This document shows, in pieces, positions 61,674 to 64,000 of a DNA stretch of 64,000 nucleotides. This DNA comes from Streptomyces eurocidicus (GTDB taxonomy: Bacteria > Actinomycetota > Actinomycetes > Streptomycetales > Streptomycetaceae). Under the pieces are notes generated by a model. It saw nothing but the letters and a program-made list of their open reading frames with translations, was not told the DNA's origin and did no database searches. The stretch is taken from the NCBI RefSeq assembly GCF_002891295.1, contig NZ_LGUI01000008.1, positions 124,001-188,000 on the forward strand. The letters are read 5' to 3'. Made by a program: the position numbers and the translations under genes. The first letter of the stretch is position 1; each line of letters starts with the position of its first letter.

Positions 61674-61708
61674 GGGTGAACGGCCCACGCTGCGTGGGAC
61701 GTTCACCC
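61674..61708 (+). terminator. Terminator after acpS
   Basis: GGGTGAACG (61674-61682) pairs with CGTTCACCC (61700-61708), and an inner CCCACG/CGTGGG stem (61684-61689 with 61693-61698) extends it. Confidence 0.8.
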
Positions 61709-61710
61709 GT

Positions 61711-61756
61711 CCCTGTCACAGGGCAGGGGTACCGTTCTGGTGTCGAGTCAGAACGG
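61711..61756 (+). promoter_or_regulatory. Promoter/operator region of the first XRE gene
   Basis: CCCTGTCACAGGG (61711-61723) is a perfect palindrome. It is followed by TACCGT (61730-61735), a -10 candidate, and by CCGTTCT (61732-61738) with AGAACGG (61750-61756), a 7-bp inverted repeat. The ATG is 8 nt later, after GGAGCTC. The same layout recurs at 63133-63180. An autoregulatory operator is likely by inference. Confidence 0.55.
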
Positions 61757-61764
61757 AGCTCAGT

Positions 61765-62949
61765 ATGCCCCCGTATTTCGGCGAACACACCGGCGCGCGG
61801 GTCGCGCACGCGCGCAAAGCGCGCCGGCTGACGCAGCGCGAGTTGGCCGACCTCTCGCACGTCTCCTACAGCACGCTCACCAAGGTGGAGCAGGGCGTCC
61901 TGCCGTCGAGCCCGTCGGTGACCGGAGCCCTGGCCCGGGCCCTCTCCGTGCCCGTCGCCGAGCTGACCGGGCAGCCGTATCTCGACGAGTTGCGCCATGA
62001 GCAGCTGGACGGCCTGATCCAGCCGATCCGCGAGGCGCTGAACATCTACGACCTCGGGCCCGACCCGGACGTGGCGCCCCGCCCCGTCGACGAGTTGGAG
62101 GCCCACGCCGAGAGGCTGTGCGCCTTGGTGCGCGTGGCGCACATCAAGCAGGTCGCGGCCGAGCTGCCCGGCCTGATCCACGAGGCGACGACCGCCGCGC
62201 ACGCATCCGGCGGCGGGCCCCACTGGCGGGTGCTGGCCAGCACGTACCGCACGGCCTACGACGTGACGACCAAGCTCGGATTCTTCGACCTCTGCACGGT
62301 CGCGCTGGACCGGCTGGACTGGGCGGCCCAGCGCGCCTCGGACCCGGTCCTGGCCGGGATGCGGCAGTACTTGCGGGCCCTGGCCTATCTGCGCGCCGCC
62401 GACTACCGGACGGGCGAGCGGCTGGTGCGGCTGGGGATGGCCACCCTGGAGCAGGCGGACGCGGGCCGGGTGCGCGACGTGGTGACCGGGCAGCTCCACC
62501 TGGGCGCCGCCGTCCTGGCCGGCCGCGACAAGGACGAGGGCACCGCCGAGGGGCACCTCGACGAGGCGCGGCGCCTGGCGGAGCGGACGGGGGCGGCGGA
62601 GGAGGTGCACTGGCTCTCGTTCGGGCCGACGAACGTCGGCGTCCATCGCGTGAGCGTCCTCGCCGAGCTGGACCGTTACCCGGAGGCCCTGCGTGTGGCG
62701 GAGGAGACGCCGATCCCCAAGAACTGGCCCCCGTCGAGGCAGGCCCACCACTGCTCCGAGATGGCCCGCGCCCAGATGTGGACCGGCCGGACGGACGCCG
62801 CCTTCGGGAGCCTCCGACAGGCGCGCAAGCTGGCGCCGCAGCAGACGCGCTACCACCCGACGGTACGGGAGACGTATGCGGGGCTGGAGTCGGCGCGACG
62901 CCGGATGCCGGAATCGTTCGCCAACTTCGGGTCATGGCTGCGGGTGTGA
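61765..62949 (+). CDS. XRE-family helix-turn-helix regulator with TPR-like C-terminus
   Basis: A 394-residue protein. Residues about 10-65 form a helix-turn-helix domain (LTQRELADLSHVSYSTLTKVEQG). Residues 75-390 are helical repeats with the segment GQPYLDELRHEQLDGLIQPIREALN, shared with the next gene. Similar streptomycete proteins combine a DNA-binding head with TPR-like repeats that can bind peptides or partner proteins. ATG 61765 is supported by GGAGCTC. Its tandem paralogue lies 240 nt downstream. Confidence 0.85.
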   Translation: MPPYFGEHTGARVAHARKARRLTQRELADLSHVSYSTLTKVEQGVLPSSPSVTGALARALSVPVAELTGQPYLDELRHEQLDGLIQPIREALNIYDLGPDPDVAPRPVDELEAHAERLCALVRVAHIKQVAAELPGLIHEATTAAHASGGGPHWRVLASTYRTAYDVTTKLGFFDLCTVALDRLDWAAQRASDPVLAGMRQYLRALAYLRAADYRTGERLVRLGMATLEQADAGRVRDVVTGQLHLGAAVLAGRDKDEGTAEGHLDEARRLAERTGAAEEVHWLSFGPTNVGVHRVSVLAELDRYPEALRVAEETPIPKNWPPSRQAHHCSEMARAQMWTGRTDAAFGSLRQARKLAPQQTRYHPTVRETYAGLESARRRMPESFANFGSWLRV

Positions 62950-63098
62950 CGGTTGGGTGACGCGTGGGCCTGAGGGTATCGGTGAGGACTGATGGTTCCG
63001 GTCTTGCCGCAGCGCAGATGGAGAAGATGGGCGACGCCGTGGCGTGCCCTGCTGAGCGGTGCTGATTGCGATCGGGTGGTGTGCATTCGCCGATGCGA

Positions 63099-63127
63099 CG
63101 AACGGCCCCCGAACCGGGGGCCGTTCG
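63099..63127 (+). terminator. Terminator after the first XRE gene
   Basis: CGAACGGCCCCC (63099-63110) pairs perfectly with GGGGGCCGTTCG (63116-63127). It ends the first XRE gene before the second promoter region. Confidence 0.75.
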
Positions 63128-63132
63128 CCTTT

Positions 63133-63180
63133 CTCCCGGCTGTGCCGGGAGTACCGTTCCGAGTGTCGAAGTCAGAACGG
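63133..63180 (+). promoter_or_regulatory. Promoter/operator region of the second XRE gene
   Basis: CTCCCGGC/GCCGGGAG palindrome with a TGT spacer (63133-63151), TACCGT (63152-63157), CCGTTCC (63154-63160) and AGAACGG (63174-63180), then GAGCTCAGT and ATG. The positions relative to the start codon match those at 61711-61756, with a 13-nt instead of 11-nt inverted-repeat spacing. Confidence 0.55.
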
Positions 63181-63188
63181 AGCTCAGT

Positions 63189-64000
63189 ATGCCCGACGAG
63201 ATTGACAAGTACATCGGCGCGCGGATCGCGGAACGGCGCGCGGACCGGGGGCTCACTCAGCAAGGGCTGGCGATGCGGGCCCATGTCTCCAAGTCGCTGC
63301 TGTCGAAGGTGGAGTGTGGGCAGCGGCCCGCGTCGCCCGAGCTCGTCGCAGCTTGCGCGCGCGGCCTGGGTGTGATGCCCGCCGACCTGCTGGGGCAGCC
63401 CTACCTCGACGAGTTGCGGCGTGATCAGCTGGATCTGCTGATCCAGCCCATCAGGGAGGCTCTGAATGTGCACAACCTCGGCCACGACCCGAGCGTCCGG
63501 CCCCGCCCGCTGGAACAACTGGCCGACGATCGCGACCGTATCTGCCTGCTCGTACACGAGACCGATCTCCGGAAGGCCGCGGCGGATCTGCCCGCTCTGA
63601 TGGTGGAGGCGATCGCCGTGGCCCACGCCACCGGCGATCCCCGGGCGTGGGCCCTGCTGGGCGGGCTGGACCGGGTGGCGTTCAACGTCGCGGCTAAGTT
63701 CGGGTTCCACGACCTTTCGCTCCTGGCCGCCGGCCGGGCGGAGTACGCGTGCGAGCGCGCTCAGGATCCTTCGCTGGCGGCGATGGCGAAGTGGATGCAC
63801 GCCATCGCCTGCCTGCGCTCGGGCGAGTTCGCGACCGGCAAGCGCCTGCACGCGATGGGGGTCAGGTACGTGGAGGACGCCGCTGAAGGGCTTGAACGGG
63901 ACGCGGTGATGGGGCAGATGAACCTGGCGGCCGCCCTGCTTGACGTCCGGTGCGGCGAGGCGGACGCGGCGCGGGGACATCTGGAGGAGGCCGAGCGGTT
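63189..64000 (+). CDS. XRE-family regulator, second tandem paralogue (partial, cut by the right edge)
   Basis: The frame begins at ATG 63189 and remains open to the window end (270 residues). A helix-turn-helix domain (GLTQQGLAMRAHVSKSLLSK) is followed by GQPYLDELRRDQLDLLIQPI, matching the upstream paralogue, and helical repeats such as AFNVAAKFGFHDLSLLAAG. The C-terminus is missing. A recent tandem duplication is indicated by shared upstream sequence and protein layout. Confidence 0.85.
   Translation, partial: MPDEIDKYIGARIAERRADRGLTQQGLAMRAHVSKSLLSKVECGQRPASPELVAACARGLGVMPADLLGQPYLDELRRDQLDLLIQPIREALNVHNLGHDPSVRPRPLEQLADDRDRICLLVHETDLRKAAADLPALMVEAIAVAHATGDPRAWALLGGLDRVAFNVAAKFGFHDLSLLAAGRAEYACERAQDPSLAAMAKWMHAIACLRSGEFATGKRLHAMGVRYVEDAAEGLERDAVMGQMNLAAALLDVRCGEADAARGHLEEAER

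Follow-up and report, generated by a model that had tools for sequence, protein, structure and literature searches.

A conserved inverted repeat at the promoters of two tandem XRE-type regulator genes of Streptomyces eurocidicus: a probable autoregulatory operator shared by many Streptomyces regulators

XRE-type regulators are many and little characterized in Streptomyces, as stated in the excerpt of PMC6262351. One described case is WhiJ9 of Streptomyces venezuelae, an XRE protein that binds downstream of its own promoter and whose loss of function increases whiJ9 transcription 2-fold; its authors argue for autorepression from that downstream site (excerpt of PMC10294661). In Caulobacter, the XRE paralogues RtrA, RtrB, CdxA, and CdxB, together with phage TgrL, have largely overlapping binding profiles, their DNA-binding domains being 64-80% identical (excerpt of PMC10688885). 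The present analysis concerns two tandem XRE-type regulator genes, and the putative operator in front of each, in a 64,000-nucleotide stretch of Streptomyces eurocidicus DNA (contig NZ_LGUI01000008.1, positions 124,001 to 188,000; G000:C11:124001-188000), which is called the window here and is part of a 7.93-Mb genome. The operator and promoter block seen in the window is common to many Streptomyces regulators that join an N-terminal helix-turn-helix (HTH) to a tetratricopeptide repeat (TPR) fold, and it probably serves the autoregulation of each gene by its own product.

The window genes resemble whiJ9 in their XRE-type HTH, in having many paralogues per Streptomyces genome, and in data consistent with autorepression. 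However, as the excerpt describes it, WhiJ9 has direct repeats and DUF397 (BldB) partners (PMC10294661), whereas here an inverted repeat lies over the probable -10 box and the C-terminus has a TPR fold. The five proteins scanned to the right of the second gene include no match to DUF397. DUF5753 is typical of WhiJ-like proteins, and no C-terminal match to it was found up to E 0.1 in the window regulators. The Caulobacter set likewise consists of XRE paralogues with similar motifs, but it acts on other target genes (excerpt of PMC10688885), while here the site precedes the regulator genes and the HTHs are far more diverged. The order of HTH and TPR superhelix is that of NprR and PlcR in the RRNPP/RRNPPA group (Rap, NprR, PlcR, AimR). 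The TPR part of the predicted model of the first protein aligns with Rap, AimR, and NprR at Z 16.6-18.6, a shared fold of a predicted model that shows no function, at 6-14% sequence identity and with unrelated eukaryotic TPR proteins ranking equally high. That model, an HTH followed by a TPR superhelix, has a mean predicted local distance difference score (pLDDT) of 89.3 and a predicted template modelling score (pTM) of 0.76 (29-sequence alignment), and its neighbours include MalT domain III (Z 19.8), Rap (Z 18.6), and AimR (Z 18.2). By sequence, seven solved structures match up to E 1, six of them to the HTH region and the seventh, ORF126, to residues 268-311 (E 0.76). As judged from the model, the TPR part is likely to sense a ligand.

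The two genes lie on the same strand downstream of two others, which we take to be glmS and acpS, and share the layout TACCGTTC-N13 (gene 1) or N15 (gene 2)-GAACGGAG-N6-ATG, with the following features.

61730-61735, plus strand: probable -10 box TACCGT of gene 1, its promoter use judged from conservation
61732-61756, no strand: putative operator 1, CCGTTCT-N11-AGAACGG, 6-base arms 13 bp apart
61755-61758, plus strand: Shine-Dalgarno GGAG of gene 1, overlapping the right arm
61755-61764: GGAGCTCAGT before gene 1, followed by ATG at 61765
61765-62949, plus strand: gene 1, regulator of 394 amino acids with XRE-type HTH (PF13560) and TPR fold (open reading frame, Pfam, predicted fold)
63152-63157, plus strand: probable -10 box TACCGT of gene 2, its promoter use likewise judged from conservation
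63154-63180, no strand: putative operator 2, CCGTTCC-N13-AGAACGG, 6-base arms 15 bp apart
63179-63182, plus strand: Shine-Dalgarno GGAG of gene 2, overlapping the right arm
63179-63188: GGAGCTCAGT before gene 2, followed by ATG at 63189
63189-64000, plus strand: gene 2, paralogous XRE-HTH regulator, interrupted by the window end (open reading frame, Pfam)

The original prediction named a palindrome, TACCGT, an inverted repeat, GGAGCTCAGT, and ATG before each gene, and all of these are found at both genes in that order and place. It had called the two operators matching, which holds for arms and order but not for length, the arm distances of 13 and 15 differing by 2 bp. It had also placed the repeat over the probable -10 box, and the left arm indeed coincides with that box while the right arm abuts the Shine-Dalgarno sequence. 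The N-terminal HTH of both proteins matches HTH_31 (PF13560) at 39.8 and 50.9 bits against a gathering cut-off of 27. The proteins are 46-47% identical and have the segment GQPYLDELR(H/R)(E/D)QLD in common. Inspection of the sequence to the right of the window, which had been suggested as a check, completed gene 2, which extends beyond the window and encodes 417 amino acids (L001 3189-4442).

It appears from sequence comparison that each of these genes is autoregulated by its own product through its dyad, with autorepression probable; we put this at roughly 0.72. Each gene would encode a one-component regulator, with an N-terminal XRE HTH on a MalT/RRNPP-like TPR superhelix, that binds as a dimer to the dyad CCGTTC(T/C)...AGAACGG on its own promoter. 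The dyad would span the probable -10 box together with the start site and reach into the edge of the Shine-Dalgarno sequence, and a bound dimer could thereby exclude RNA polymerase and block open-complex formation, holding the level of the protein low; a ligand or partner on the TPR part would alter operator occupancy. Autorepression is the natural reading of the dyad, as the authors of the WhiJ9 study argued for the whiJ9 site (excerpt of PMC10294661). The dyad overlaps the presumed core promoter, and its symmetry is kept in relatives by counts. The element is real and of an ordinary kind, probably an autoregulatory operator. Its interest lies in its reach across the genus and in the mismatch between a conserved operator and diverging recognition helices.

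With regard to conservation, 392 genomes drawn from the genus were searched with the window protein P0002, and 101 of them, counting the own genome, have relatives at E<=1e-70. A contig scan with the single protein gave five relatives only, all in records named Streptomyces, which were added to the sample; some P0002 matches were left out, such as those in G266, G067, G298, G333, G367, and G188 and the second matches of G204 and G043. From 119 relative genes, 115 were kept (at least 100 bits, match from the first 30 residues, distinct context), and these represent 113 different upstream regions. A two-part weight matrix with a free spacer, fitted without regard to pairing and not refitted on the shuffles, scored above the maximum of 565 shuffles in 106 of the 113 regions and below it in seven (L042, L043, L045, L065, L075, L091, and L100). 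The conserved blocks are TA..GT of the -10 box, TC, GAAC, and GGAG, with six bases to the start codon in 79 of the 106. When 105 of the 106 motif-bearing regions were aligned for the -10 and -35 positions, T1, A2, and T6 of TACCGT each occurred in 99%, and no -35 element was conserved. The 6-base arms lie 12-19 bp apart among relatives, and in 620 kb around them all 135 matrix matches above 16 stand at the start of a family gene. The right-arm GAAC carries 0.9-2.1 bits per position, and the arm pair persists in L258 and L257 though the Shine-Dalgarno sequence has shifted away, which favours the view that the arm is an independent site; the claim that the operator is conserved beyond what a promoter and ribosome-binding site need is borne out by these two observations. 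In orthologous loci the inverted repeat is mostly retained, being present in 23 of 26 orthologues of gene 1 that are at least 69% identical, a set that includes the window's own gene and in which L042, L043, and L045 fall below the shuffles. A 27th orthologue, in G463, has the left arm CCGTGC. Of the proposed auto- and cross-regulation, the first part gains support from this comparison, while cross-regulation within the pair is not specifically supported.

The site was then counted with a sequence-only model at E<1e-3, training sites included. It gave 81 sites in 51 genomes: two in the own genome, 28 in 11 of 12 chosen relatives (the twelfth, G065, has a best E of 0.00145), and 51 more in 197 genomes of the order, a draw with stricter filters that may lose weak sites. 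Among those 197, at least one site is borne by 41, the own genome and G310 included; just one of the 41 lies outside the genus (G406), and 30 carry exactly one site at that threshold. All 81 sites directly precede a gene of the HTH-TPR type (L225, L229, and L230 were settled via reading frames), and no other kind of gene stands behind any of them. Beyond the HTH, 78 of the 81 script-cut proteins also match residues 80-394 of the window-family profile at E<=1e-3; the other three are the decayed L225 and the misframed L229 and L230. L155 (interrupted) and L225 (decayed past the HTH) are broken copies, and L233 is cut by a contig end. With the full-length window-family profile, 31 of the 81 score below 300 bits, counting the truncated L155, L225, and L233 and the misframed L229 and L230, with the HTH contributing a large share of the score in the most distant members (e.g., L198 and L235). 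Ten divergent proteins were scanned with Pfam: each has an HTH above the cut-off, and four of them (L159, L168, L210, and L235) have weak TPR matches below it. The full dyad is retained in members with a protein identity of about 27-36% (L157, L159, L167, L169, L165, and L144), identity to P0002 being 26.9% for L157, 28.1% for L159, and 29.7% for L169. The search is non-circular for these proteins, because the model was built from close relatives. In a tree of 63 genes, which over-represents operator-bearing genes by choice and shows only the spread over deep branches, the site is distributed over deep HTH-TPR branches with at least nine label changes. Weak matches in the relatives (E 0.001-1) were fetched in part: L153, L170, L171, L175, and L180 precede HTH-TPR-type genes, L162, L163, L164, L177, and L178 do not, and L176 and L179 have no site by the weight matrix. 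No paper title on the motif or the family was found among the matches listed in a literature search. The broken copies L155/L182 and L225 retain an intact-looking operator.

In the own genome the site is rare. The pattern TACCGTTC-N4..34-GAACGG occurs three times, against none for the reversed control, and in the third match, L021, the arms are just 5 bp apart. The site profile has two significant matches in 7.93 Mb, with E 1.4e-10 and 7e-10, and the next stands at 0.29. The window sites are not due to chance, and by pattern and profile they are the only strong ones of this form in the genome. A wider regulon was considered and rejected, there being no further strong site and four weaker matches (E 0.29-3.2) that do not precede HTH-TPR genes. 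The exact pattern TACCGTTC-N10..26-GAACGGAGCTC is rare, in 2 of 295 genomes, because the bases past GGAG vary. Beyond the pair, three of four own-genome paralogues with a complete HTH are without the dyad, and the fourth has a variant.

Symmetry of the dyad was measured on a MAFFT alignment of 68 of the 99 distinct sites listed. In these 68 operators the share of arm cells that pair is 85.8%, the shuffles giving 81.5%, and both sides are altered in 28 cells, against 10.9, with none of 500 shuffles as high; with the partner slid by 1-3 columns, both-side changes number 4-9. In addition, inner position 7 pairs (TA, CG, AT) in 76 of 106 operators, the permutation mean being 41.6 and the maximum 59. 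The dyad is thus, as far as sequence can tell, well supported by place and counts and less so by independent events.

That each protein binds its own site is favoured because the sites precede genes for DNA-binding proteins. In G471, G493, G412, and G440 the operator stands before a divergent member, and the P0002 match there is no better than E 4.3e-34 (none at 1e-20 in G440); since these genomes have no close relative of the window protein, a window-like protein cannot be the binder there. Self-binding is placed first among the options for the binder on this sequence evidence. Operator differences track the HTH, with a partial r of 0.128 given the TPR part, above all 500 permutations, against -0.06 for the TPR part (162 genes). 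Among the 25 columns most informative on spacer type, eight fall in the HTH, which holds 59 of 393 columns.

Several observations weigh against autoregulation by the own product. The recognition helices diverge (e.g., YS..K, KS..K, and TE..A in GRSxEWVKAIE types) at positions that correspond to DNA contacts in 434 repressor, and the arms hardly vary; constant arms with diverging helices are not predicted by simple self-recognition. The specificity may be set by contacts elsewhere, one site may be read by several proteins, or the binder may be another factor. The link between HTH and operator is small (r about 0.13) and comes partly from one clade, and an arm spacing of 12-19 bp is unusual for a rigid dimer. 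The own-genome relatives L009, L012, and L014 lack a site, as do the partial matches L013 and L015. Two of the five symmetry measures are weaker: pairs changed on both sides number 5 against 3.3, with 49 of 500 shuffles as high, and pair types 14 against 11.4, with 32 of 500 as high. Double changes at positions 1-6 number 8 against a mean of 2.4, yet stay under the permutation maximum of 9, and tree-corrected independent pairs at position 7 average 4.8 the same versus 1.2 the opposite, with a median p of 0.29, which is not significant.

A common trans-acting factor, such as one master regulator, might bind the shared operator in place of the genes' own products and control the genes as a set. 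The retention of one operator while the recognition helices differ, and its spread over deep branches of the tree described above, fit such a factor; however, all 81 strong sites precede genes that themselves encode DNA-binding proteins, the site is present in genomes without a window-like member, and operator differences weakly track the HTH, so we regard it as improbable. Far less probable still is that the repeat is nothing more than a good promoter plus ribosome-binding site that a recent duplication has passed on. TA...T is indeed conserved best and GGAG is well preserved, but the right-arm GAAC belongs to neither signal, the arms covary in counts, the full dyad survives at about 27-36% protein identity, and the own-genome paralogues mentioned above are mostly without it. 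A hairpin in the leader RNA that hides the Shine-Dalgarno sequence is the least credible of the alternatives and was rejected. Its right arm abuts GGAG and the gene-1 sequence can fold into a stem; however, the left arm is the probable -10 box, which would make the transcript begin inside the spacer, the gene-2 sequence fails to fold into the stem, the z-scores are -0.9 and -0.5, and one-sided changes abolish pairing in 77 cells, by breaks that are not of the wobble kind, and produce a different standard pair in 16.

It could also be that the tandem pair forms a dedicated cross-regulatory unit, in which each protein binds both operators or heterodimers form. The two genes agree in their arms and in the 10 bases before ATG, one recognition helix, VSYSTLTKVEQG, goes with spacers of 12-15 bp, and tandem family pairs in G058 and G150 likewise carry two operators each. 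Because of the identical arms and the spacing tolerance within one helix type, cross-binding between the pair members is plausible on sequence grounds, though no observation made demands it. A dedicated unit, by contrast, is unlikely. Among 12 gene-1 loci with wide flanks (at least 69% identity), ten have no second family gene (L022, L023, L024, L244-L248, L250, and L251), and the two that do are L242, with another paralogue, and L279, with the same pair. That one other genome among those examined with the same pair (G463, L279) has the altered left arm CCGTGC at gene 1 (83%), and its gene 2 (96%) keeps all 27 operator bases. The recognition helices differ as well, residue 35 being Y in the gene-1 and K in the gene-2 protein. 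Gene 1 is downstream of acpS in L022, L024, L250, and L251, with 2-4 kb between them in L022 and L250. The tandem looks like an arrangement that duplication or insertion has produced repeatedly, and not like a fixed two-gene device.

A wider reading can be put forward tentatively, with fairly low confidence: one operator may be the mark of Streptomyces HTH-TPR regulators, of which several paralogues per genome with diverged helices form a cross-talking network or all obey one other binder. Such a network, if true, would measure total HTH-TPR protein. As XRE regulators are abundant and poorly characterized in Streptomyces, the predicted operator offers a direct handle on a large HTH-TPR group, being usable as a 40-bp binding probe, as a DNA marker for members, and as a test of a fixed operator against changing helices.

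A third HTH-TPR gene of the own genome (L010, C14, reverse strand, about 2640-2780) has a variant site followed by a Shine-Dalgarno sequence and the ATG of a leader open reading frame of 18 codons; L264 has the same arrangement with 17 codons. The leader stop overlaps or abuts the regulator start in both, a layout that suggests translational coupling. In the paralogue L265, which is without canonical arms, a different dyad, CCTGCTGT-N13-ACAGCAGG, was spotted by eye at the corresponding place; it could be an operator whose specificity has changed.

The remaining elements around the two promoters are as follows.

61674-61708, plus strand: terminator-like hairpin downstream of acpS (-27.6 kcal/mol, z -5.4)
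61711-61723, no strand: small palindrome CCCTGTCACAGGG upstream of gene 1
63100-63126, plus strand: terminator-like hairpin downstream of gene 1 (-29.2 kcal/mol, z -3.8)
63133-63151, no strand: small palindrome CTCCCGGCTGTGCCGGGAG upstream of gene 2

The hairpins probably terminate acpS and gene 1, respectively. The palindromes are present at both genes as predicted, but they differ in sequence, and relatives show no conservation where they lie: in the 105 upstream regions all positions from -60 to -4, counted from TACCGT, stay at or below 0.55 bits; they were rejected as part of the operator. A near copy of CTCCCGGCTGTGCCGGGAG is present in G463, though not in the wider family.

To the right of gene 2 lie a 53-amino-acid open reading frame (start at L001 4585, no Pfam or NCBIfam match), an HATPase_c_2 protein, a TIGR04188 methyltransferase, a MerR regulator, and a trypsin-NACHT protein, followed by an open reading frame on the opposite strand that we take to be nnrE. 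No XRE domain is found in the five proteins scanned up to L001 10140, and none of them is an ATP-grasp protein. The trypsin-like and NACHT protein (L001 7513-10140) also adjoins gene 1 in L022, L024, L250, and L251. The methyltransferase (L001 5195-6325) is of the kind of ATP-grasp peptide maturases, with 423 bits against a cut-off of 380. Downstream clusters of open reading frames were counted within the available 3.6 kb or less of each relative locus. Of the 115 HTH-TPR genes, 29 are followed, at a median of 136 bases past the stop, by a cluster of proteins of about 166 amino acids (e.g., g26_+_1465_198); its representative matches nothing in Pfam or NCBIfam at E 0.001. A cluster of the TIGR04188 methyltransferase kind (representative 320 against a cut-off of 380) follows 15 of the 115, and an ATP-grasp cluster, whose representative is a TIGR04187 ligase, follows four. 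Given such nearby graspetide-type genes, some members may regulate peptide natural products.

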